Below are positions 1,255 to 13,697 of a DNA stretch of 21,038 nt, piece after piece. Made by a program: the position numbers and the translations under genes. The stretch's first letter is position 1; each line of letters begins with the position of its first letter. The notes beneath the pieces were generated by a model. The model was not told the DNA's origin and did no database searches. It saw nothing but the letters and a program-made list of their open reading frames with translations. Source of the DNA: a virus; the IMG/VR virus record IMGVR_UViG_3300032322_002288, positions 1-21,038 of that record, one strand, 5' to 3'.

Positions 1255-2478
1255 ATGAGTAACGTATTTCAAGGAGTCGCAAGCGGACTCTATAACTTAA
1301 AAAACTGGTATCAGGGGCCTATCGTTGACCAATTCAACGAAGATACTCCAATTTACCGTGGTGCAGAAAAGTCAAAACTTAAGTGGGACGGTTATCAAGT
1401 AGTGCGTCCTTTGCGAGTTAGACGTAATCAGGGCATTGGTGCTACTTCTGACGGTGGGACTCTTCCTGCTATCGGTCGTCAGGCTGGTGTTCAGGCTTTG
1501 GTTCAGGCGAAATATAACTATCTTCGCTTTGGTATCACTGGCCCAATGATTAAGTCGTCTATGACTGACAAAGGTAGCTTTGTTCGTCAGGCCGCTCATG
1601 AGCTACAAATGGCTTACAAGGACCTTCAGTCCGATGTAAACCGTCAGTGCTCTTGGGATGGTACAGGCGACCTAGCTCGTTTGAATGCCAACGTGGTTGC
1701 TACTAACTCAATGGTTGTAAAAGGCCGTGAGGATGGTGAGCCCGCTTTGAAATTCCTAGATGTCGGAACTGTTTTCGACGTTTATGATTCAGGCGGTACT
1801 TTGGTCGATTCTGGTATCCAAGTAACTGCTATCACTTCTGGTTCTGCCACAAGTGCCACAGCTACTTTGACCATCGATCAAAACATCACTGTTAGCGAAA
1901 ACGACATTATCGTTCGAGCTGGCGCTTTTGACCAGGAAGTGCAAGGTCTTCTGTATTCTCTAGACGGTGGTACTTCCACTATCTATGGAAACGTAAACCG
2001 CGCTCTATACCCATCTACTCAAGGTAACGTAGTTGATCTAAACCAAGCTCAGTTGACTTTGGATGCTCTGCAAAACCTTTGGAACTTGGGTAAAAACCGA
2101 GGTGGAGCTAAGTATTCTGCTATTTACTCTGACTTTGACAGTCAGCGAATGTATCAGAAACTTCTGACCGCCGATAAGCGTTATGTGAACACTGTTAAAG
2201 GCGATGGTGGTTTTGCTTCTAAAGAAGAAAGCTACCTTGAGTTTAACGGTATTCCTTGGGTGGCTGACAAAGACTGTCCTAAGCGCATTTTCATGCTTGG
2301 CAAAGACTGCATCGAGAAGATGGTTCTTTGCGAGATGGAATTCGCCGATGAGACTGGCTCTATGTACATCGCTCAGACTTCGGCTGACAGCTTTGAGGTT
2401 CGGGTGCGGCACTTTTTCAACTTGTTCAACGCTCAGGCTTCGGCTTGTGGTGTTCTAGTTGATTACGCCAGCCCCTAA
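1255..2478 (+). CDS. Major capsid protein (HK97-fold type)
   Basis: This is a 407-residue protein directly after the scaffold, with the size and position of a major capsid protein. Its N-terminal part (LKNWYQGPIVDQFNEDTPIY, about 15-34) and the following segment about converting residues to a basic loop (VVRPLRVRRNQG) are like capsid proteins of scaffold-dependent phages. A middle β-rich region (about 165-225, many Thr/Ser/Val) looks like an inserted domain, and the rest alternates helices and strands. The HK97 fold is inferred from family knowledge. There is no N-terminal delta-domain or cleavage signal that I can see. The start is supported by GTGAGGT upstream. The stop TAA overlaps an ATG at 2478. 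Confidence 0.88.
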   Translation: MSNVFQGVASGLYNLKNWYQGPIVDQFNEDTPIYRGAEKSKLKWDGYQVVRPLRVRRNQGIGATSDGGTLPAIGRQAGVQALVQAKYNYLRFGITGPMIKSSMTDKGSFVRQAAHELQMAYKDLQSDVNRQCSWDGTGDLARLNANVVATNSMVVKGREDGEPALKFLDVGTVFDVYDSGGTLVDSGIQVTAITSGSATSATATLTIDQNITVSENDIIVRAGAFDQEVQGLLYSLDGGTSTIYGNVNRALYPSTQGNVVDLNQAQLTLDALQNLWNLGKNRGGAKYSAIYSDFDSQRMYQKLLTADKRYVNTVKGDGGFASKEESYLEFNGIPWVADKDCPKRIFMLGKDCIEKMVLCEMEFADETGSMYIAQTSADSFEVRVRHFFNLFNAQASACGVLVDYASP

Positions 2479-2489
2479 TGAGGTTTAAA

Positions 2490-2966
2490 ATGGACAGTGA
2501 AGTTACACGTTTACAAAGAATCTTTAAACGGTTTGATAAGGATTTGACAGTGCGCCGAAGTCCCGACGGCGTTGCTCGACTTATTCAAAAAATCAAAAAG
2601 CTAAAGGGATTTGATGTGGACGGTTTAACTATTTACTGTCCAGTTGAGGAAGAGCATCTCATTTTCTCTTTTACCGATGATTTTTCGGCGAAAGGGAAGC
2701 CTGTGGAGTGGGGGCATGAGCCCCTATTTCACAAGATGCGTCAAATAGCTCTTGACCGTCGTGATGCTCTTTTTCGTGAGCTTGAGGAAGAGTCGAAGAA
2801 AAAAGAAGAGAAAAAGGACCGAGATCAATTTGCTAAGTTTGAGGACATAGCTCATGAGACTCGGGATATTTACAAAAAAACCTTTTCGGATGTCCTGACT
2901 CATTCAATGGATAAGTCAAAAGACCCGAGAAGGCGCTTAGAAAGGAGCAAATATGGCAATAGTTAA
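2490..2966 (+). CDS. Hypothetical protein following capsid gene
   Basis: This encodes 158 residues from the ATG at 2490. The frame is open from 2478, but 2490 is preferred because it is preceded by TGAGGT at almost the same distance as the capsid gene's own site. The N-terminal half is a compact α/β-like segment (about 1-75). The C-terminal half is a long charged helix with runs of Glu and Lys (about 88-115) and a basic end. It overlaps the next gene by 14 bp. I do not recognise the family. Its position suggests a head completion, capsid-associated or assembly role, which is inference. Confidence 0.75.
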   Translation: MDSEVTRLQRIFKRFDKDLTVRRSPDGVARLIQKIKKLKGFDVDGLTIYCPVEEEHLIFSFTDDFSAKGKPVEWGHEPLFHKMRQIALDRRDALFRELEEESKKKEEKKDRDQFAKFEDIAHETRDIYKKTFSDVLTHSMDKSKDPRRRLERSKYGNS

Positions 2967-3381
2967 TAGAGACCTAGACCGTTCGGAACAGTTATTCACA
3001 GTTGACGCCGTACATGGTGCGGTTGCGACTGGAGTATCTGTTATCGTGGGTCTTGTTAAAGCCCCTGGGCAATGCTTGGGGATGAGGCTTTCTGGTCGGG
3101 GACTTTCAGGAGCCCCTGTGTACCAGTTGGCGGTAGCTCGCTGGACGTCAGCCGGAATCACCAACATTGCTTTGGGAAGTGCAGTAACACTTGCCACGGC
3201 TTTTGGTGTGTCGGGTGGAGCCATTGGGATTAGCATTTCTGCTAGTTCTACTTTGGCAGCACTTCAGGCTGGGGACCTTCTAGTCTTGAATACAAGCGGT
3301 GCCAACACTGCCGTTACAAGTCTAGTTGTGTCTGCCGTCATGCAAGCTGCACAAGACATTAAAAAGACCCACGGTCTATAA
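2953..3381 (+). CDS. Putative capsid decoration protein
   Basis: This encodes 142 residues with a strong AAAGGAG site and an ATG at 2953. After a short polar start (VNRDLDRSEQLF) the chain is a run of short β-strands rich in Ala, Val, Gly, Ser and Thr, ending in a helical AAQDIKK tail. Proteins of this size and style, starting with the NRDLDxSEQ pattern, are often found just downstream of capsid genes in environmental phages, where they are thought to be capsid-associated decoration proteins. That assignment rests on recollection of the pattern and on position, not on a named domain. There is one Cys and no membrane segment despite the hydrophobic composition. Confidence 0.6.
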   Translation: MAIVNRDLDRSEQLFTVDAVHGAVATGVSVIVGLVKAPGQCLGMRLSGRGLSGAPVYQLAVARWTSAGITNIALGSAVTLATAFGVSGGAIGISISASSTLAALQAGDLLVLNTSGANTAVTSLVVSAVMQAAQDIKKTHGL

Positions 3382-3501: not shown

Positions 3502-4017
3502 ATGCATATTTTTAAACCAGGATCATCGGGCGGTGGGGGATCTGGCGGCGGTGGGTCTTTACAGGCTTACGCTTCTGACTCAACTCCGGCTCCGGTTGAC
3601 GGCGTAGTTGATAACTTTGGGGTGCTTAGTTTTTCTCAGGCCGCAGGGCAGTCGATCTTTTATAATTTCGTAGTGCCTTCAAGTTATGTGGCTGGGGCTC
3701 AGCTAAACATGACTTTTCAATTCTTCTCTGACGCCGCAAGTAATAACATTCACTGGATTGCTAAGACTAAACTCATTCAGCTTGGGCAAGATGCTACCGT
3801 CCAGTCGGACCAACACATTTCAGCAACGGCGGCTATCACTCAGACTAACGCCAATTATCTTCAGACTGTGACTTTGGATTTATGTTCTGGTCTTGGCCAG
3901 ATTAACTCTATTCCTGTAGCGTCTGACGATTTGCTTTTAATAGAGATTTACCGAGACCCATCGGACACAGCGACAGAAGACGCTTATTTAATTAAAACAA
4001 CGGTGAGGATAGAATAA
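3502..4017 (+). CDS. Jelly-roll-like virion surface/fibre protein with Gly4Ser linker
   Basis: This encodes 171 residues from the ATG at 3502, preceded by GAGGTT. The frame is open back to a GTG at 3421, but that stretch covers the hairpins and lacks a proper site. A short N-terminal peptide MHIFKPGSS is followed by a perfect (GGGGS)2 linker (about 10-19), then a β-rich domain. The later segment DDLLLIEIYRDPSDTATEDAY resembles a jelly-roll module I recognise in phage fibre proteins, in which a strand ending in a YRDxxD motif is typical. The likely picture is a virion-anchoring peptide joined by a flexible linker to a surface domain. The stop overlaps the next start (TAATG). Confidence 0.65.
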   Translation: MHIFKPGSSGGGGSGGGGSLQAYASDSTPAPVDGVVDNFGVLSFSQAAGQSIFYNFVVPSSYVAGAQLNMTFQFFSDAASNNIHWIAKTKLIQLGQDATVQSDQHISATAAITQTNANYLQTVTLDLCSGLGQINSIPVASDDLLLIEIYRDPSDTATEDAYLIKTTVRIE

Positions 4018-5873
4018 TGCCCAATATTATTGCTTTGATCTTAAGTCTTACGTTCTGGCCACTTTTGACTGTGGCTCAGTTAACAAATCAACAGTCGCAG
4101 TTTGTGACTCCTGAGAATATCTTAGATAACCCAGGGTTTCAAAATGGCAAGACCAAGTGGGCGGTGTCTACCGGATCGTGGAGTGTGGCTGGGTCGGGGT
4201 TAGACAATTACGCATCGTGGGATGCTTCGGCGTCTACGCAGACTTTCTGTTCTGACCTTAAGACTGTGCCTGACCGCTTGAAGGGTAAAAACGGCGCGGC
4301 ACTTCTTAACGTGTCAGTACCATCGGGGACAGCGACCCATAAGATCGAGGTCAGAGACGGGTCAGCCAATATTCTAGCTCCGGATGACATTTTCTCTAAC
4401 GACCAAGCTGTGAATAACATCGTGAACTTTATCTTCCCGACATCTGGCACTGTGCGGGTGTGCTTAGTAGCACAAGCCGATGAGCCAGCGGTGCGGGTGT
4501 ATAACGGGATCATCGCCGATGCGACACATCTCAACATTGGCAATGCTTCGGTCATAAGTGGGTGGACGACAGTGACCATTTCGATGACCCACGCATCGGG
4601 TACTTGGACCAATACGACAGTATCGTCAATTATGAGAAGAGTTGGCGATAAGGCAGAGTTTAAAACTCGTGTCACGGCCAACGGCGCAGTCGGGACATTC
4701 TCTCAAGTCAGGTTTACTTTACCAGCAGGGCTAACTTTAAACTCAGCCGAGGCAGTGGATAGCTCAAGACCTATCGGTCGAGCATATTGCTGGGATGCAG
4801 CTCCAGTTCTTTTTCTTTGTGAAGTCAGGATAGATTCATCTGGAAACATTGAAGTCCTAGCCGCTACCGCTCCAACGACCGCCACGCAAGGAGTTGCTTT
4901 TATTACCCAGGCAGTTCCGTTTACCTGGGCGTCTGGTGACAGAATCCAGGCAGAATACTCGGTCCGCATCGCCGAGTGGTCGGGCACTGCATCGGTCTTC
5001 CGAGCCGACACAGTGGCGCAGAGTGGAATGTGGGCGTTTGACTCAAACTGCTCATGGGCTAGGACGAATACGGCTCTTGGAGATCCAGCGACCGATGCGT
5101 CCTGTACTTTGATCCAAGTTTCAAACGTCAACATGGGCACCGTGACGATTGCAGGTGGAGCGAATACGCTGCCTGGGATTATCTGGACTGCGAAAAGTAC
5201 GGGAGATTATAAAGTCTGCTTTACTATTTTAAATATCGTTATGAGCGCGGGAGCTATAGGCGGCACTACGATAGATATTAACGGGACTGATTACGTTCAG
5301 AGTGTAGACACATCTAGTGGGGCTTCGACATACCTTCCAGGTGTTAATTATTGTGCAACTCTTAGAGCGAGCGCAGGAACGCAATACACTGCAAAACTGC
5401 AAACTAGAGCAGGTTCTGGATCAATTACAGTTGCAGGTGCGGCAATACCATACACGTCATTTGTAACCATCGAAGCCTTATCAGTAGCCAAACCAGCCCC
5501 TCTTATCGAGAATGCTGTGGTGTCATCTTACACTGGAGTCACGGGGGTGGAGTGGGTCGCGTTTGGTGGAGCGACTGAGGGTACGAATAACTGCGCAGCT
5601 TCGCCTTGTACGGTTTATAGAAGAAGTCCTGGGGTAACAAGTGTTACTAGGGGTGGTACTGGTCTATACGACATAAATTTTAGTGCAGGGACATTTAGCT
5701 CTGCTCCAGTTTGTGTTGCCGTTTGTAACATCATAGCATCGGCAAACTGCGCGGCTGTGCAGTCTGCCTCAACATTGGCCACTAGCGTCCTATTTAGGAT
5801 GGCAACCATTGCTCCAGCAACAGGGGCATTAACAGACGCTTATATGATGGCTTACTGCATAGGACCCCGATAG
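4017..5873 (+). CDS. Modular fibre/adhesin-like protein with signal-peptide-like N-terminus
   Basis: This encodes 618 residues. Residues 1-21 form a hydrophobic stretch ending TVAQL, like a signal peptide although it lacks the usual basic start. Then follows a carbohydrate-binding-module-like domain (about 33-170) with the pattern NPGFQNGKTKWAVS and SASTQTFCSDL. A second β-rich module (about 178-330) starts near SGWTTVTISM and contains the VGDKAEFKTRV segment. A third module (about 335-495) and a C-terminal domain (about 500-618) follow. Such module strings are common in phage proteins that contact host surfaces. The chain has 14 Cys, unusual for a cytoplasmically assembled fibre. It is translationally coupled to the preceding gene and lies in the structural operon. 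A receptor-binding or secreted role is inference. Confidence 0.65.
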   Translation: MPNIIALILSLTFWPLLTVAQLTNQQSQFVTPENILDNPGFQNGKTKWAVSTGSWSVAGSGLDNYASWDASASTQTFCSDLKTVPDRLKGKNGAALLNVSVPSGTATHKIEVRDGSANILAPDDIFSNDQAVNNIVNFIFPTSGTVRVCLVAQADEPAVRVYNGIIADATHLNIGNASVISGWTTVTISMTHASGTWTNTTVSSIMRRVGDKAEFKTRVTANGAVGTFSQVRFTLPAGLTLNSAEAVDSSRPIGRAYCWDAAPVLFLCEVRIDSSGNIEVLAATAPTTATQGVAFITQAVPFTWASGDRIQAEYSVRIAEWSGTASVFRADTVAQSGMWAFDSNCSWARTNTALGDPATDASCTLIQVSNVNMGTVTIAGGANTLPGIIWTAKSTGDYKVCFTILNIVMSAGAIGGTTIDINGTDYVQSVDTSSGASTYLPGVNYCATLRASAGTQYTAKLQTRAGSGSITVAGAAIPYTSFVTIEALSVAKPAPLIENAVVSSYTGVTGVEWVAFGGATEGTNNCAASPCTVYRRSPGVTSVTRGGTGLYDINFSAGTFSSAPVCVAVCNIIASANCAAVQSASTLATSVLFRMATIAPATGALTDAYMMAYCIGPR

Positions 5874-5916: not shown

Positions 5917-6696
5917 ATGAGCAAATACTACGGTCTGGCTTTTTCGCCTTCAAATCCCAGCGCCTATCCTTCGCTGGCACCTACATTCATCACTTTTCGC
6001 AATGCGCTGACGGGGCAGACACTAGCCCCGCCGACACTTGCCCAAATAGACGTCACTGGAATTTATGGGTTTACGTTTTCGGCGACCTTCCCTGTTTATT
6101 TCTTAGCCGATGGGATAACGACTGCGACACCTACCGAGCGGTATGTTTATGGGGTTCTAGACCCTGCATTTGACATTGATTCTCAAGTAAGAGAATTAGG
6201 CTCGACTCTTGTGGCCTTAGGAAATTCGTCTGTGGCTTTAGGCAGTACTTCGATTGCTCTAGGGACTACAAATGTGGCCTTAAACACTAGCATTTTGGCA
6301 GTCGGAACGTCCACCTACGCGATTGGCGGGTCTATCCTAGCTGTGGGGAATTCTAACCTTGCTTTAGGAAATAGCATCTTAGCGGTGGGGACTTCGGGTC
6401 TTGCGGTCGGAAATTCTATCCTGGCCATTGGAACGTCCACCTACGCTGAGCTTTTGGGCCAGGCTGGAAGTGCTGCGACCCTTACGGCTCTTATTGGCAA
6501 TACTTCAAGCACTTTTGGTACTAACGTGGCCGACCCGACTACTTTATTCGGATATATGAAACGTATGCAGGAATTTAACGAGGGAGCCCAAACCTTCAGT
6601 AAATTAACTGGAACGTGGACAATTAACAGTCGTGGTGGAAGTCTAATTGCTACGAAAACGCTAAATAATTCCAGCTCAGAAGTGAGTCGGAACTAA
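5917..6696 (+). CDS. Fibre-like virion protein with twelve 7-residue repeats
   Basis: This encodes 259 residues. The N-terminal domain (about 1-85) has a pattern LAPTFITFRN...ITTSGxYGFTF that looks like a small β-sandwich seen in phage virion proteins next to adaptor genes. Residues 95-178 are twelve consecutive 7-residue repeats with consensus G-[NT]-S-x-[LVY]-A-[VLI]. Gly at each repeat argues against a coiled coil and for a β-roll, similar in style to the SxAxG repeats of YadA-type heads. A C-terminal domain (about 180-259) follows. The start has AAGGAG (5901-5906). It ends 24 bp before the glycosyltransferase gene. Role as a trimeric fibre or capsid spike is inferred. Confidence 0.7.
   Translation: MSKYYGLAFSPSNPSAYPSLAPTFITFRNALTGQTLAPPTLAQIDVTGIYGFTFSATFPVYFLADGITTATPTERYVYGVLDPAFDIDSQVRELGSTLVALGNSSVALGSTSIALGTTNVALNTSILAVGTSTYAIGGSILAVGNSNLALGNSILAVGTSGLAVGNSILAIGTSTYAELLGQAGSAATLTALIGNTSSTFGTNVADPTTLFGYMKRMQEFNEGAQTFSKLTGTWTINSRGGSLIATKTLNNSSSEVSRN
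6199..6450 (+). repeat. Twelve tandem 21-bp/7-residue repeats
   Basis: The repeat block encodes GSTLVAL, GNSSVAL, GSTSIAL, GTTNVAL, NTSILAV, GTSTYAI, GGSILAV, GNSNLAL, GNSILAV, GTSGLAV, GNSILAI and GTSTYAE. The DNA is largely diverged between units, but an identical 17-mer (GGAACGTCCACCTACGC) occurs at 6304-6320 and 6430-6446, exactly six repeats (126 bp) apart, pointing to duplication of a 42-residue block. Confidence 0.85.
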
Positions 6697-6720
6697 GCCC
6701 AAAACGAAAGGATAAGGTAA

Positions 6721-9003
6721 ATGAATCGTCCCACAATTACTCTAGCCTGTATCATGAAGGATGAGATTAAACACATCCGAGAAATGCTCAAAAGTGTTCA
6801 TGGGTGTTTTGATGAAATACACCTAACAGACACCGGATCGACCGATGGAACAATAGAGGTCGTGACAAGTGGCGAGGCTGAACAGATAGCCGGATGCCCT
6901 GTGAAGTTACTCCACTTTGAGTGGTGCGATGATTTCTCTAAAGCCAGAAATCACTCAATGAGTGAGGTAAAGACTGATTTTGTCATGTGGTTAGACCTTG
7001 ATGACCGCTTGTCTTCGATTGAAGAGTTTAAAAAGTGGCGCGACCATGTGATGCTTCTCGCTGATTTTTGGCTGGCCCCTTATCACTATGCCCATAATGA
7101 ACGAGGGGAAGTAATCTGCACCTTTACAAGGGAGCGGGTAGTTAGAACATCAAAGAAATTCTCTTGGGAGTATTTCATTCACGAGGGGATGATTGCAAAA
7201 GAGCCTGTAGACGCTCAGTTTGTTAATAATTGGTGGGTGGTTCACGCTCGGTCAAAAGAGGACTACGAAAAGGACTATTCTAGAAACGTGTCTATTCTAG
7301 AGAAGAGGGCCAAGACCGAGACCCTTCCGACACGTCTAAAGTGGTATTACGGAAAAGAGCTATTTGATAAGGGTCGTTGGGCTGAGGCTTACGTTTGGCT
7401 TGAGCAAGTGGTGGACGCCAAAGACTTAGAGCTTCACGATAGGATTTTGTGTTTTGAGTACCTGATTCGGGCCTCACTTCAGAGGTTTCATAATGAGGTA
7501 AACAAGGACTATAACCTAATCGCTAAAGGTCTTTCCTACGCCATGCAAGCGACTGCATTGGCTCCACAACGTGCTGAGTTTTGGTGTCTAGCTGGGGATT
7601 GCCTGATTCAAATGGGTCGGGACACTGACGCTATTCCCCTATACTCTGCGGCTTTAAATTGCTCACTTCCTGGCGCTAATGACCCTTCTTTTATCTTTGC
7701 TAATCGAGATGCCTACACACACATCCCGAAAAACCAAATAGCTCGAATAAAGTTTAAAATTGGTGATCTTGACGGCGCTCTACTGACTGCAAAAGAGTCT
7801 TTGGTTAAGTGGCCCCATCCTGAAACTGAGGGATTACTAAAGCAGCTCACCGAAATGAAGATGAAAGTTAAGGAAATGGAAGGTGGGGATAAAGTCGAGA
7901 CCGATGACATCGTGTTCACTTGTATTCCAGGCTCTCATCCCTATGAATTTGACGATGAGGTTTACTCTCAAAGGGGCATCGGTGGGAGTGAGACGGCACT
8001 TGTTGAGGTAGCAACGTGGCTTTCCAAGCTAACTCACCGAAGGATTATAGTTTTTAACACTCGTGAGACGGCGAAGGTCATGCCTAGCGGTGTGGAATAC
8101 CGTCCAGCTCAGAATATGCACGAGTATTTTAAACTCTATAAGCCAGGGGTCCACATAGCTTGGAGACATAACGTCAAGATAACAGACGCTCCGACTTATT
8201 TATGGTGTCATGACCTACACACTCCTGGGGCCGAGACACATAAAAACTATGTAAAACACCTCTGCTTAAGTGAGTTTCATAAAAATTACGTTCAGGTTTT
8301 GCAGAAAATCCCTTCGGACAAGATTTACATTACTAGAAATGGTGTGAACGCTGACAGGTTTAAGGGTTTTGTAGCGAAAAACGAGAATAAAGTTGTTTTT
8401 GCCTCAAGTCCTGACCGTGGATTAGACCGAGCAATCCTGATTGTCGAAGAGGCAAGGAAGGAAAAGCCTGATTTAGAGCTTCACGCCTACTACGGCATGG
8501 ATAATATGAAAAAAATGGGCGGGGCTTTCGGTGAAAAGGCCAAAATGCTCGAGGAAATGATCTCTACTAGGCCATGGGTGAAGTTTCACGGAAATGTGGA
8601 CCAAAAAACACTAGCAAAAGAGATGAAAGAGGCTGTGATTTGGCTTTATCCGGCTAATTTCATCGAAACCTACTGTATTACGGCTCTAGAAGCGATGTAT
8701 GCGGGATGTTTCGGGCTAGTGAGAGAAATTGGAGCCTTGAAAAACACTGTTAGGCCGTTTCACGACCGAGGATGGGCCAAATTATTGTTTATGGACGCTT
8801 CGACCGATGAGGAGCGCAAAGTTTGGGCTAAGGAATTGGTATCGGCCATTGATAGGAAGGCCTGGACTCAGATTGACATGAGTCAAATGGACTACTCGTG
8901 GCGTGGAGTGGCTCAAGATTTCATGAAGGTCATGGGAATTGAGGGAAAGACCCTAACGACAGAAGGGGCTTCTCTTATTCATGACGCTGTAATTTCACCT
9001 TAA
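6721..9003 (+). CDS. Bifunctional glycosyltransferase (GT2-like + TPR-like + GT4-like)
   Basis: This encodes 760 residues with two sugar-transferase domains. The N-terminal GT-A/GT2 domain (about 1-190) shows the nucleotide-sugar start ACIMKDE (9-15), DTGSTDGT (37-44) and the metal-binding DLDD (92-95). A helical, TPR-like linker (about 195-390) follows, as in TPR-linked GT2 proteins. The C-terminal GT-B/GT4 domain (about 405-740) has RGIGGSETA near 417-425, a nucleotide-binding-region segment RNGVNADRF near 539, and the E-x7-E pair E649 and E657. No membrane segment is visible, so it is probably cytoplasmic. It lies in the structural operon between fibre and adaptor genes with GGATAAGG upstream. 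It may glycosylate virion proteins or alter host surface sugars; substrates are unknown. Confidence 0.88.
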   Translation: MNRPTITLACIMKDEIKHIREMLKSVHGCFDEIHLTDTGSTDGTIEVVTSGEAEQIAGCPVKLLHFEWCDDFSKARNHSMSEVKTDFVMWLDLDDRLSSIEEFKKWRDHVMLLADFWLAPYHYAHNERGEVICTFTRERVVRTSKKFSWEYFIHEGMIAKEPVDAQFVNNWWVVHARSKEDYEKDYSRNVSILEKRAKTETLPTRLKWYYGKELFDKGRWAEAYVWLEQVVDAKDLELHDRILCFEYLIRASLQRFHNEVNKDYNLIAKGLSYAMQATALAPQRAEFWCLAGDCLIQMGRDTDAIPLYSAALNCSLPGANDPSFIFANRDAYTHIPKNQIARIKFKIGDLDGALLTAKESLVKWPHPETEGLLKQLTEMKMKVKEMEGGDKVETDDIVFTCIPGSHPYEFDDEVYSQRGIGGSETALVEVATWLSKLTHRRIIVFNTRETAKVMPSGVEYRPAQNMHEYFKLYKPGVHIAWRHNVKITDAPTYLWCHDLHTPGAETHKNYVKHLCLSEFHKNYVQVLQKIPSDKIYITRNGVNADRFKGFVAKNENKVVFASSPDRGLDRAILIVEEARKEKPDLELHAYYGMDNMKKMGGAFGEKAKMLEEMISTRPWVKFHGNVDQKTLAKEMKEAVIWLYPANFIETYCITALEAMYAGCFGLVREIGALKNTVRPFHDRGWAKLLFMDASTDEERKVWAKELVSAIDRKAWTQIDMSQMDYSWRGVAQDFMKVMGIEGKTLTTEGASLIHDAVISP

Positions 9004-9012
9004 GGGGGACTA

Positions 9013-9300
9013 ATGCCGTATCCTTTATTTGATGTAACTGTGAAGGGTACGGCGTTAGAGACTCAAGGTCATACTGAGTGGAATACCTATGACGGTCTTG
9101 GACTTCTCACCGATGGGCTAGTCTGGGATTGTCAAAATATCTGGTTTGGCCCCTACACTTCTACAGGGGCCACGATTATTGCGACAAATTGGACTTTATC
9201 GGCTGGCGAGGCCGTGACTACAAGCTGGACTTTATCCCCAGGAGTTACGGTTTCAACTACCTGGGTACCTTATTCGACTTATAATATAGAGGATTGCTAG
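9013..9300 (+). CDS. Small β-rich virion protein with Trp repeats
   Basis: This encodes 95 residues starting at an ATG behind GGGGGA. The first part (about 1-50) is polar and aromatic; the second holds three units of about 12 residues, TNWTLSAGEAVT, TSWTLSPGVTVS and TTWVPYSTYNIE (about 59-94), a β-strand repeat with Trp at the same place. It ends in Cys. I do not recognise the family. Position directly before the head-tail adaptor, and its small size, suggest a minor virion or tail component. Confidence 0.65.
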   Translation: MPYPLFDVTVKGTALETQGHTEWNTYDGLGLLTDGLVWDCQNIWFGPYTSTGATIIATNWTLSAGEAVTTSWTLSPGVTVSTTWVPYSTYNIEDC

Positions 9301-9309
9301 GGGGATTGG

Positions 9310-9969
9310 ATGACTTTTGCTCAGTTAAGAACACTTGTCTGGTCGTGGCTTGATGACCCAAATGGCGGGTATTTCACACAGTCGCAAGTAAACACTTGGT
9401 TAAATAACGCTCAGAGTGCGGTTCAGAAGTTAGTTGAGCAAGCCTTTGAGGGGCATTTCGAGAAGGTCGTTGAGACTACTACGGTCCTTAATCAAAGAGA
9501 ATACCAATTGCCTGACGATTTTAAGAGGCTTGTTAGGCTCGAGCTTGTTTTGTCTGGGAACACATTCGCCAACGAGTCAGTGCAAAAGCTAGATAAGATT
9601 ACACCTAACCAAGTGGACTTTTTCACCGAGCGGACTGGGATCTCAAGGGCTTACTACTTTAAGAAAAACCAGCTTATTTTGGTTCCTGCGCCTGAGAGCA
9701 TTAAAAAACTCCGAATGACCTACATTTATCGACTAGAAAACATGGTGAATGACTCTGACGTGTCCGAGATCCCAGAGGATTATCATGAGATGATTGCGGT
9801 CTTGGCGACTCTTGACGGTCTTTTAAAGGATGGTCGGGACACGTCTGCTATGGATAAAAAACGCGCTATGTACGAAGAGCAGTTAAAAAGAGACGCCGAG
9901 CAACGCCATGTCGATGCGCCTAGGACTGTGGTTCAAACCATTGAGGATGATTTCGAGGGTATTTACTAG
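9310..9969 (+). CDS. Head-tail adaptor protein (gp4/gp6-like)
   Basis: This 219-residue protein is predicted to bind under the portal and join it to the tail. It starts with helical segments (TFAQLRTLVWSWLDD, then QSQVNTWLNNAQSAVQKL, about 2-43), followed by a β-containing middle with REYQLPDDFKRLVRL (about 59-73) and a long helical C-terminal part (about 150-205). The pattern of an N-terminal helix with WLDD, then NxAQ, then a LPxDFKR strand is typical of the adaptor family in short-tailed phages. The start follows GGGGGATTGG. The next gene begins right after the stop, giving a tight cluster with the nozzle-like genes. Confidence 0.8.
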   Translation: MTFAQLRTLVWSWLDDPNGGYFTQSQVNTWLNNAQSAVQKLVEQAFEGHFEKVVETTTVLNQREYQLPDDFKRLVRLELVLSGNTFANESVQKLDKITPNQVDFFTERTGISRAYYFKKNQLILVPAPESIKKLRMTYIYRLENMVNDSDVSEIPEDYHEMIAVLATLDGLLKDGRDTSAMDKKRAMYEEQLKRDAEQRHVDAPRTVVQTIEDDFEGIY

Positions 9970-11841
9970 ATGCCTTATGAGAAGCTAAAGGATGAGCAAT
10001 ATAATAATTTAGGCGGGGTGAACGTAAAGGGATCCGCTTATATAACTGGGGACGGTCAGTTCCTAGATATTAGAAATTATTGTTTTGAGCGTCCAAATGC
10101 TTTGAGGTCACGTCCTGGTATTTCAGACACTCTAACCTTGGCCAAGTCTACCTATGGGGCGACGCCGACAAGTCTTTATCAGTTTACAAGTCCTAATTGG
10201 GCCACGACTGCGGTGGGGGCTTCTTTTTTGGTTTTCGATTCTGGAAATAACCTATATTTTCAAAATGACGTTACATTGTTTTCGGTGTTTCCAAGTCTGG
10301 CTGGCCAAAGCATTGATTTTGTTACTGAGATAAATAGTCAGTATACAAACACACAAAAAGATTATCTTTACTTTGCGAATGGCCAGGATTTCAGGCTTTA
10401 CTCAAGTGGTTCTGGTTCCACAGTGGGAATTTGGCCTTATTCTCTTGCTATTCAGTACAATTTCCCAGTACCTACTTCGGCACCAACGGTAAGCTCATCG
10501 GCACTAGGCACAACTACTGCTCCAATTGCGGCTGGCACACATATTATTAAAATTGTTCTCGGCAAGGCTTTTGACAATACTGCTACCGGAGTAGAAAACG
10601 CTTATTTTTCTGAGGACGGTCCACCCGCATATCGTTATGAACCTATAACTTTGTCTCCTGGTTTTCCTTTTGGCTTTGATGGTATTGCTCCAAATATCCC
10701 TGGGTATGGATACAACTGCTATGCAATTAAGTGGACTTCACCAGCGACAGGAATAGAACGAACATTTGGCCCAGACCAAAACAGGCGATTTTCTCAGGAT
10801 AGTGTTACATTTGCGTTTACATTTCAGGCAGTAGAGAGTTTTGACGCAGTTTCAGGCATTGCAAGTCTATCTCTAGCTCCTAGATTTCTAGAAACCTACA
10901 AAAATATGCTATTTATGTCTGGCTTTTCCGGCGAGCCGCACAGGATTAGACATAGTGACATTGGGGCTTTTTTATTTTTTGCAGCACAAAATCAAATCGA
11001 GGTCTTACCAGGACAATCAACGGAAATAACGTGCCTTAAAAAGTTTCAAGATTCTTTAATAGTATTTAAGGACTCTTCAGTTTATGAGATCCGAGGGGAT
11101 AGTCCAGAGACGTTAAGCGTTAAAACTATCACGACAGAGTATGGGTGCGTGAATAACCGAGCCGCAGTAACATTTGAAAATAAGCTGTGGTTCGTCGATA
11201 AAAAAGGCATTTGTGAATATAATGGACCGGACACTTTCATTGTATCCTATCCAGTAGAGGAATTTTTTAAAGACCTAGACCCTAATTCATTTAAAGCTTT
11301 ACACGTTAAAAGTGAAAATCAAGTGTGGTTTGCCTCTGACAATGTGGTTTTGGTCTATGATTATGAGGTGGGGGCTTGGACTATTTACGATAACATACCG
11401 ATAAGCTCAAATGCAGCTTCGGAAGTGATTGAATACGGTCAAACATTGCCAATGCCTACTTGGGTGACTTCGGGTACAAGCCATTTTTTCATTTCCAGAT
11501 TAGATCGGTCAGTCAATACCGACAGAGGACAAAACATAACATTAATTTTACAGACCAAATATCACAAAAGAATGGGTGACTCGACCCAAGAGCTTTTTAG
11601 ACGTCTTTTCCTAGATTATGCGCCAGGCCTAACAAATACGCCAACAATTGCTATTGAGCTTCGACCAGACTACGGGTCAAGCGTTTACTCGACCCTTTAT
11701 TCAAATCTTGATTCGTACCAATCTCGTTTAGACTTTGGTATTTCTGCAAAAGCTCTTTCTGTAAGAACTATTCTAAGCTCGGGCGAAAAGGTAACTTTTA
11801 ACGGCTACACGATTGAAAGCCGATACTTAAGGGGTACCTAA
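9970..11841 (+). CDS. Tail nozzle/DNA-stabilisation protein, copy 1
   Basis: This encodes 623 residues. It starts with YEKLKDEQYNNLGGVNVKG and continues to IRNYCFERPNALRSRPG (about 1-50), the start pattern of large proteins that follow the adaptor in podoviruses. The middle and later parts hold β-propeller-like blades, e.g. DSLIVFKDSSVYEIRGDSPE, then KLWFVDKKGICEY, then ENQVWFASDNVVLVYDYE (about 360-475). Such proteins form the ring below the adaptor that closes the portal channel, comparable in role to P22 gp10 or the T7 nozzle. The C-terminal NGYTIESRYLRG ending is shared with the next gene, a full-length paralogue. It begins immediately after the adaptor stop and its own stop overlaps the next start. 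Confidence 0.75.
   Translation: MPYEKLKDEQYNNLGGVNVKGSAYITGDGQFLDIRNYCFERPNALRSRPGISDTLTLAKSTYGATPTSLYQFTSPNWATTAVGASFLVFDSGNNLYFQNDVTLFSVFPSLAGQSIDFVTEINSQYTNTQKDYLYFANGQDFRLYSSGSGSTVGIWPYSLAIQYNFPVPTSAPTVSSSALGTTTAPIAAGTHIIKIVLGKAFDNTATGVENAYFSEDGPPAYRYEPITLSPGFPFGFDGIAPNIPGYGYNCYAIKWTSPATGIERTFGPDQNRRFSQDSVTFAFTFQAVESFDAVSGIASLSLAPRFLETYKNMLFMSGFSGEPHRIRHSDIGAFLFFAAQNQIEVLPGQSTEITCLKKFQDSLIVFKDSSVYEIRGDSPETLSVKTITTEYGCVNNRAAVTFENKLWFVDKKGICEYNGPDTFIVSYPVEEFFKDLDPNSFKALHVKSENQVWFASDNVVLVYDYEVGAWTIYDNIPISSNAASEVIEYGQTLPMPTWVTSGTSHFFISRLDRSVNTDRGQNITLILQTKYHKRMGDSTQELFRRLFLDYAPGLTNTPTIAIELRPDYGSSVYSTLYSNLDSYQSRLDFGISAKALSVRTILSSGEKVTFNGYTIESRYLRGT
11173..11220 (+). repeat. 48-bp exact repeat, copy 1
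   Basis: These 48 bases, encoding ENKLWFVDKKGICEY with flanks, are identical to 13032-13079 in the neighbouring paralogue. The bases on both sides differ, and most of the two genes are strongly diverged at DNA level. Confidence 0.95.
11798..11825 (+). repeat. 28-bp exact repeat at gene end, copy 1
   Basis: A 28-base identical run, encoding NGYTIESRY, matches 13654-13681 at the 3' end of the second nozzle gene. It lies just before the stop in both genes. Confidence 0.95.
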
Positions 11842-13697
11842 TGTCATACCCAAAGAGCAAAATTGAAAGCTATCAAAATTTTGGTGGGATTAACCTAAAA
11901 ACTTCTGAGTACACAACGGCTAAAAATGAATTACTCGACTCTAGAAATTACACCTTAGAGCGGCTAGGATCTTTGACTTCTAGAATAGGAACAGAGGCCC
12001 ATTTGTCTCTTCCGGTTTCTACCTTTTTAGTAAAGCCGCAAAACTCTTATGTTTACAAAAAAGAAGATGGATCTAGTTTTTTGATGTTTGACTCTGGGAT
12101 GACGCTTTTTGCCCTTGGTTCGTCTCTTGCTGGTATTGATGGGACGATAACAGAAAACGCCACGACCAGTGTTATCATGGATTTTGTGACTGCCAATGAT
12201 TACCTTTATTATTCGCCGAATGGCCTTCGCAGGTTTGACGGTACAGATTCTTTAAAAATAGGACCGCCGTCTATTTCTCTGGCTCCCACGGCTGGCCGGA
12301 CGCCTACGCTAGGGATTACATTTAACACAAGTCTTGGAACCGGAGTGACTGCGGTTATTCCAAAAGATTTTTATTATTGGCGAGCCTCTTGGCTGGTTGG
12401 TAGCCCGTCTCTCACTGATGGCAAGATTTCACAATTTTTCTTTTTAGAGGCTCCAAAATTTCCTGGCTCTACTGGCAGTTTTCGTGGGGCTGGGCAGCCC
12501 ATAGAGATTGGTTCAACTATAGTATCGCAAGGGCAATGGCTTTTGTGGGGCTTTTCTGTCCCGCCAGGATTTGGCGTTTCCTCGATTGCGTTGGCTTATG
12601 CTCGGGACGGTGTAACTAACTTTGTCTATGCGATGCCTAGAAGTTTTACTCTTACTATTATTTCTGGGGTTACGACATACGCCGCAGTAGTTCCTCATTT
12701 TACTACTACCCAATATAATTATTCGATAAAAGGACCGCCAACTCAAGGAGTCGATAGACTTTCATGGTATAACAACATGATTTTTGCGTCTAAGGACAAT
12801 ACTATAGACGTCTCGACAATTGAGGACATCGAGTCATTCCCGCCGGAAAATAAAATTATAATTTCCGGTAATCCTTCTGATTCTATTGTAGCTATGACAC
12901 CATTTCAGGATTCTTTAATAATTTTTAAAGAGGACTCTATTCATGAGTTAAAAGGAGACAGTCCAGAAACTTTGTCTGTGGTGGATATATCTTTCGAGTA
13001 TGGATGTGTTAGCCCAAGAGGGTTTTGCGTTTTTGAAAATAAGCTGTGGTTCGTCGATAAAAAAGGCATTTGTGAATATCAGGGCTCAAATATCCTGAGG
13101 GTTGCGGATAAAATAGAGCCATTAACTGACGTAGCCGATATGTATTCTATGGCGGCAATTCACGTCAAAAAATTAAATCAAGTGTGGTTTTCTGACGGAT
13201 CACTTGTCTTTGTTTACGATTACCTAGCAGACGCTTGGCTTCTTTATGATAACCTACAAATTGATAAGACATCGGGCCTAATAAATATAGATTATGGTTC
13301 TGACAGAATAGATCCTTTTTATTGGCAATCTGGGGCTTCTTTTCATTTAGGAATAAGATTCGGGCAAAGCCTGATGACCGATCTTGGGTCAGCCATTAGC
13401 CTTATGATAAAAACCAGGTATCATCAAAGAGAGGACAAGTCCTCAACCGAAGTATGGCGGCGTTTTTACCTTAACACCGATGTTACTGGCCAGACTCTCG
13501 GATTTACCCTGCTTATGAGGCCTGATTATGGGTCCAGCGTTTATGAAACAAGGTCTTTGCCGATGAGTCAATTTCAAGAGAGAATTGACTTCGGTATTCC
13601 GGCAGAAAGTTTATCGGTTGAGTTACAACTTGTGTCCTCGACCAAGGTAAGAATTAACGGCTACACGATTGAAAGCCGATATTTAAGGAGCGTTTAA
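11841..13697 (+). CDS. Tail nozzle/DNA-stabilisation protein, copy 2
   Basis: This 618-residue protein is a tandem paralogue of the preceding one. Shared parts include the start ESYQNFGGINLKTSEY with SRNYTLERLGSLTSR, the central DSLIIFKEDSIHELKGDSPE, the KLWFVDKKGICEY blade, LNQVWFSDGSLVFVYDY and the C-terminus NGYTIESRYLRS. The region between about 150 and 320 differs most. Its start overlaps the preceding stop in TAATG, with AAGGGG upstream. The likely role is the same ring or nozzle below the adaptor; two copies may form a mixed ring or two stacked rings, or one may have taken a new task such as holding fibres. A name beyond tail ring/nozzle is inference. Confidence 0.75.
   Translation: MSYPKSKIESYQNFGGINLKTSEYTTAKNELLDSRNYTLERLGSLTSRIGTEAHLSLPVSTFLVKPQNSYVYKKEDGSSFLMFDSGMTLFALGSSLAGIDGTITENATTSVIMDFVTANDYLYYSPNGLRRFDGTDSLKIGPPSISLAPTAGRTPTLGITFNTSLGTGVTAVIPKDFYYWRASWLVGSPSLTDGKISQFFFLEAPKFPGSTGSFRGAGQPIEIGSTIVSQGQWLLWGFSVPPGFGVSSIALAYARDGVTNFVYAMPRSFTLTIISGVTTYAAVVPHFTTTQYNYSIKGPPTQGVDRLSWYNNMIFASKDNTIDVSTIEDIESFPPENKIIISGNPSDSIVAMTPFQDSLIIFKEDSIHELKGDSPETLSVVDISFEYGCVSPRGFCVFENKLWFVDKKGICEYQGSNILRVADKIEPLTDVADMYSMAAIHVKKLNQVWFSDGSLVFVYDYLADAWLLYDNLQIDKTSGLINIDYGSDRIDPFYWQSGASFHLGIRFGQSLMTDLGSAISLMIKTRYHQREDKSSTEVWRRFYLNTDVTGQTLGFTLLMRPDYGSSVYETRSLPMSQFQERIDFGIPAESLSVELQLVSSTKVRINGYTIESRYLRSV
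13032..13079 (+). repeat. 48-bp exact repeat, copy 2
   Basis: This is the second copy of the 48-base block at 11173-11220. It encodes the same blade (ENKLWFVDKKGICEY) of the second nozzle-like protein and lies 1859 bp downstream of the first copy. Confidence 0.95.
13654..13681 (+). repeat. 28-bp exact repeat at gene end, copy 2
   Basis: This is the second copy of the 28-base run at 11798-11825, encoding NGYTIESRY just before the end of the second nozzle gene. Confidence 0.95.

Follow-up and report, generated by a model that had tools for sequence, protein, structure and literature searches.

A clade of uncultured podovirus-like (short-tailed) phages, judged from their sequences, keeps a fused GT2-TPR-GT4 glycosyltransferase as a core gene of the structural operon, and this enzyme probably glycosylates virion proteins. 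The gene lies in a 21-kb virus record, the whole of which (21,038 nt) is referred to below as the window. The record contains a co-directional structural operon composed of genes for the scaffold, the major capsid protein, small structural proteins, a spike-like region, a block formed by the repeat protein (REP) and the enzyme, and an SU10-type adaptor, downstream of which are large stabilisation-like proteins and, further on, a transglycosylase. The features discussed here are the following:

1255..2478, + strand: major capsid protein (PHROG major head protein, E 3.6e-48); clade-defining marker and possible alternative acceptor
2953..3381, + strand: 142-aa protein encoded beside the capsid gene, present in relatives as 1-3 tandem copies; could be an alternative acceptor
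5917..6696, + strand: REP, 259 aa, with conserved N-domain (residues 1-90) and C-domain (190-259); the repeats are its sole match to a known family
6199..6450, + strand: optional heptad array inside REP, about 12 heptads G-x-[ST]-x-x-A-x, YadA-head-like
6721..9003, + strand: fused glycosyltransferase, 760 aa, with a GT2-like GT-A domain (about 1-180), a TPR-like helical linker (about 180-390) and a GT4-fold GT-B domain (about 394-741)
6721..7320, + strand: GT-A half of the enzyme, SunS/ThuS/GmaR-like, with DTGS 37-40, W68-x-x-D-F-x-x-A-R-N77, DLDD 92-95 and HEG 154-156
7900..8943, + strand: GT-B half of the enzyme, GT4-like, with GGSET 421-425, HD 497-498, NG 540-541, SPDRG 563-567 and E649-x7-E657
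9013..9300, + strand: small Thr-x-Trp protein, 95 aa, with three units (ATNWT, TTSWT, STTWV); conserved enzyme neighbour and candidate acceptor
9310..9969, + strand: SU10-type adaptor gene, following the REP-enzyme-small protein block

Regarding the other structural genes, the one to three tandem copies of the 142-aa protein (L028, L032 and L077, for instance) form a pattern conceivable for a decoration protein. A 618-aa spike-like protein encoded at 4017-5873 had no family matches; most relatives have unrelated proteins in its place, so that this is a variable and perhaps receptor-binding slot. The large stabilisation-like protein is represented by tandem paralogues (35% identical) at 9970-11841 and 11841-13697, with two copies also in the near relatives L002 and L011 and one in most others.

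Domain organization and relatives of the enzyme

The original prediction described a 760-residue fusion of GT-A, TPR-like and GT-B parts with intact DLDD and E-x7-E motifs, placed in the structural operon 24 bp after a repeat protein, and the analysis confirmed this description. Within the structural operon, 24 nt lie between the + strand ORFs at 5917-6696 and 6721-9003, with a Shine-Dalgarno-like AAAGGATA upstream of the enzyme's ATG. The GT-A half matched Pfam Glycos_transf_2 (PF00535) with an E of 1.3e-9 and 38.6 bits, above the curated cut-off of 23.3, and the GT-B half matched Glycos_transf_1 (PF00534) with an E of 6.1e-7 and 29.6 bits, above the curated cut-off of 26.4. The middle matched TPR_2 at E 1e-4 and 22.6 bits, under the cut-off of 27, gave profile matches to designed TPRs and formed helical hairpins in the predicted model. 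Structure prediction, proposed as a check, yielded an AlphaFold2 model with a mean pLDDT of 85 and the order GT-A, helical repeat, GT-B. Both motifs were located (D92-x-D94-D95 and E649-x7-E657): D92, D94, D95 and E649 are invariant across 48 homologues, and E657 is retained in 46 of them. Between the window and L002, the enzyme gene showed a dN of 0.22 with saturated synonymous sites, which indicates purifying selection.

The GT-A half is nearest to glycosyltransferases of proteins or peptides, namely SunS, ThuS and the flagellin-modifying GmaR. These were the sole solved relatives of this half in a single-sequence PDB search (E 2.8e-11 to 2.4e-7), a profile search recovered the same three at 2e-24 to 5e-16, and Foldseek ranked ThuS and SunS on top for the enzyme model, with OGT/SPINDLY prominent next. 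The SunS equivalog model TIGR04195 scored 47.6 bits against a cut-off of 350, so that the enzyme is only a distant SunS relative and no SunS orthologue. The GT-B half matched the GT4 fold of GlgM, MshA, HepE, PglA and WaaG with Z of 25-29 in VIA-align, the best Z being 28.7 to GlgM and MshA (313-314 residues aligned, rmsd 2.8-3.2); the list of matches was filled by GT-B folds and is uninformative on the GT-A half. Since the GT4 fold is common to lipopolysaccharide (LPS), teichoic acid and small-molecule transferases, the second domain gives no pointer to a protein acceptor.

When compared to the glycocin peptide S-glycosyltransferases SunS and ThuS, the enzyme likewise has a GT-A domain of GT2 type ahead of a TPR-like helical part, shares the W-x-x-D-F-x-x-A-R-N, D-x-D and HE regions, and is encoded next to a gene for a small protein bearing Cys, Ser or Thr. 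SunS itself is encoded by phage SPbeta, and the enzyme is about 26% identical to the SPbeta protein where the two align. In contrast to these enzymes, it carries an extra GT4 domain and is situated in a virion operon, not in a bacteriocin cluster. Glycocin enzymes act on Ser, Thr or Cys residues (PMC8620827, PMC12457901). The Listeria flagellin O-GlcNAc transferase GmaR, which puts GlcNAc on flagellin and whose TPR domain is proposed to recognise flagellin, resembles the enzyme in its N-terminal GT2 domain and in a TPR domain, to which the TPR-like part of the enzyme would correspond, and its target is a protein subunit that self-assembles (PMC9638930), but it has a C-terminal linker and anti-repressor domains in place of the GT4 domain. 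OGT and SPINDLY also combine TPRs with a GT-B domain and act on proteins; they differ in lacking a GT-A domain and in belonging to GT41, whereas the GT-B domain of the enzyme is GT4-like.

Bacterial genome contigs scanned with the enzyme contained only GT-A/TPR relatives, in Firmicutes, and none of 79 bacterial glycosyltransferase ORFs compared to the enzyme model aligned across the GT-B part. Flagellin neighbours were rejected as a general pattern of the bacterial homologues, being present at one of the best 80 loci, the Clostridiales contig L182 (4213-6634, 8001-10351), where two flagellin genes are situated just upstream of a SunS/GmaR-like glycosyltransferase. The same transferase domain also begins giant proteins of 1780 residues in larger phage contigs (L122:9911-15265 and L123:9956-15301), with no capsid gene among the neighbours tested.

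Distribution in the capsid clade

Using the capsid and the enzyme as queries, scans gathered some 50 contigs of the clade. Of 47 clade records, the 43 extending as far as the site all carry the enzyme, as a single copy in the same place, and the four negatives end before it; a phage-encoded transferase linked to virion genes, a criterion for virion glycosylation, was thus found in each record that covers the position. In three clade contigs the gene is split over the contig ends; in one of these (L016, record G007) it is also partly inverted, with residues 63-504 on the minus and 518-735 on the plus strand, which is probably an assembly artefact. The gene order across the clade is REP, enzyme, small protein and adaptor, and an integrase was identified in two of the 50 records searched, 47 of which belong to this clade.

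Sister phages with 26-30% capsid identity, represented by the complete Manatee Spring genomes MW202554 and MW202795 and a 44-kb contig, showed no GT2 match, and the enzyme thus marks this capsid clade. In phages whose capsid protein belongs to another family (L007 and the pair L017/L018, which are MW202524/MW202718), fused homologues also occur, two or three genes downstream of the one for the capsid. In MW202524, a podovirus, the fused enzyme is followed by more transferase-like genes and two methyltransferases between the capsid and tail genes (L017:3120-11978), a gene set that possibly represents a larger virion-glycan cluster.

The neighbouring repeat protein and small protein

The heptad array of REP starts at position 6199, corresponding to codon 95, and extends over residues 95-172 as G-x-[ST]-x-x-A in steps of seven residues, the unit at 123 being degenerate. 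The pattern had 13 matches in REP, whereas 2000 shuffles averaged 0.8 and reached at most 5. Of the twelve G-[NT]-S-x-x-A-x repeats originally described, the number of about 12 heptads held, but strict G-[NT]-S-x-x-A occurs in seven units only and the others are near variants. The heptads form an insert between the conserved N- and C-domains. They share the heptad A-x-G-x-[ST] pattern with YadA-head repeats, in which positions of this kind belong to the beta-roll, and differ from them in being an optional insert, in scoring under the Pfam cut-off in the window copy (YadA_head, PF05658: 15.6 bits, E 0.022, cut-off 25) and in their low confidence in the monomer model; three of 24 relatives matched this family at E 0.05, the best with an E of 1.7e-6. 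In that model the N- and C-domains were confident and the heptads mostly at or below a pLDDT of 50, and a Foldseek search with it gave no match at E 0.001. By tblastn, REP and the small protein were found in no named phage.

The small protein measures 58-104 residues across relatives and is located beside the enzyme in nearly every genome, the exceptions being L012 and L033 and, for its motif, also L015. It had no PHROG or PDB match and single weak Pfam matches only. Its C-terminal part carries one to four units resembling [IV]-[ST]-T-x-W-[ST], spaced about 10-12 residues apart (for example ITTSWTSFSQGVTTNWTSFAQGVTTTW of L109), and the motif in the small proteins overall is Thr-x-Trp/Tyr. Among the HMM-detected small proteins, [ST][ST]-x-W was observed 38 times against 4.4 expected in shuffles, a density of 16.8 per 1000 aa compared to at most 0.6 in every other family, and the T58 and W60 columns of the first unit belong to the few that show at least 90% conservation in an alignment of 36 sequences whose mean column identity is 22%. 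A separate scan seeded with nine small proteins gave matches beside the enzyme only (18 of 18 loci). In L036 the small ORF, masked by overlap with the adaptor gene, carries three units, and the protein encoded after the enzyme in L030, a genome without REP, starts with TASYT, TASYT and TVTWV. Frames with two Thr-x-Trp motifs were absent from the examined parts of the sisters without the glycosyltransferase and of the distant fused-enzyme phages; their absence from the latter suggests that the small protein is unnecessary for some members of the enzyme family. The motif could serve as an acceptor sequon or for docking of the enzyme, or it may form a structural strand.

Two further candidate features were rejected. 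Array length and Thr-x-Trp copy number gave a Spearman coefficient of 0.52 over 33 genomes, with just five phylogenetically independent pairs and an uninformative sign test, and a C-terminal Cys comparable to that of glycocin F is present in near relatives only.

Acceptor, alternatives and proposed role

The original prediction suggested that the enzyme glycosylates the Ser/Thr heptads of REP, with serine-rich repeat proteins and their transferases as the parallel. The adjacency of the two genes, 24 nt apart, the periodic array rich in Ser and Thr, and the presence of the REP N- and C-domains with the enzyme in 37 of 40 genomes all speak for it. However, in the same survey, which comprised the 40 genomes in which the enzyme was complete and its neighbourhood known, at least four tandem heptads were found in 11, REP with fewer or none in 26, and no REP in three (L012, L030 and L033), with the enzyme intact; at least six changes of the array were counted on the enzyme tree. 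Co-occurrence among relatives therefore stood for the flanking domains of REP and failed for the array, and the serine-rich-repeat parallel fell with it, the repeat protein not being found wherever the enzyme is. The stretches examined in fused-enzyme phages of other capsid lineages likewise contained no REP-like repeat protein. Given the resemblance of the heptads to YadA-head repeats, the regular spacing of their Ser and Thr residues is probably structural, and an array both optional and YadA-head-like is not what the enzyme needs. The array could be modified where present; glycosylation of the heptads as the enzyme's role is improbable, and a required acceptor function of the array equally so.

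Modification of host surface glycans (LPS or teichoic acid), with superinfection block or serotype change as the outcome, is a frequent role of phage glycosyltransferases and would suit a GT-B fold common to WaaG, TarM and PglA. We consider it unlikely, given that an integrase in two of 50 records leaves little lysogeny to convert and that the gene is a core member of the late structural operon and occupies no accessory spot; the GT-A half is, moreover, nearest to protein-modifying enzymes. Glycosylation of phage DNA bases has a precedent in phage glycosyltransferases that can act on hypermodified DNA (Pyle 2024, as cited in PMC12619734), but the position of the gene in the structural operon and the absence of any thymidylate synthase/hydroxymethylase-family gene above cut-off in 25 larger records make it very unlikely; a TET/JBP search also gave no match, with its control likewise matching nowhere. 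The fixed place among structural genes would suit a catalytically spent enzyme retained as a virion or assembly protein, an explanation that we regard as the least credible because the catalytic motifs of the two domains are conserved in 48 homologues.

Glycosylation of virion proteins is favoured over host-surface conversion because the enzyme is a core gene of a clade mostly lacking integrases. In the original wording, the substrate was the repeat protein or other virion proteins; the protein-type GT-A half and the core operon position uphold the latter part, and the repeat array drops out. Since a syntenic operon position can be inherited, co-occurrence of neighbours is weak proof of a substrate. 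The small Thr-x-Trp protein is tentatively the most likely acceptor and a better candidate than the heptad array; after it come conserved proteins of the virion, for example the capsid protein, the 142-aa protein or REP through its flanking domains. A more speculative proposal is that the GT2-TPR-GT4 polypeptide may build a disaccharide at the one to four Thr-x-Trp sequons of this small, fast-evolving virion protein.

We infer the activity, the sugar, the order of transfers and the acceptor as follows. The enzyme would be a cytoplasmic bifunctional protein glycosyltransferase produced with the late structural genes, in which the TPR-like middle part probably binds a virion protein that is newly made or unfolded. 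A first sugar would be placed on Ser, Thr or Cys by the inverting, SunS/GmaR-like GT2 domain, and a second would come from the retaining GT4 domain. After incorporation of the glycosylated protein into virions, the glycan could have a shielding or stabilising effect on it or change adsorption.

To our knowledge, glycosylation of phage-particle proteins has been demonstrated in few systems only. It is already established in mycobacteriophages, where Che8, Rita and relatives with their own glycosyltransferases bear glycans on capsid and tail-tube proteins (Freeman 2023, as cited in PMC11256854 and PMC12619734). In mycobacteriophage Maravista the glycosyltransferase genes are located near the 3' end of the genome, whereas the single fused enzyme described here, known from sequence alone, lies within the structural operon. 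New here are the fused GT2-TPR-GT4 enzyme as a core gene of a podovirus-like clade, the conserved three-gene block and the Thr-x-Trp protein, of which we found no published description within a partial coverage of the literature. If the proposed role is correct, some phages would rely on glycosylation as an ordinary and obligatory part of assembling their particles, and together with its small Thr-x-Trp neighbour the enzyme would provide a compact, testable enzyme-acceptor pair.
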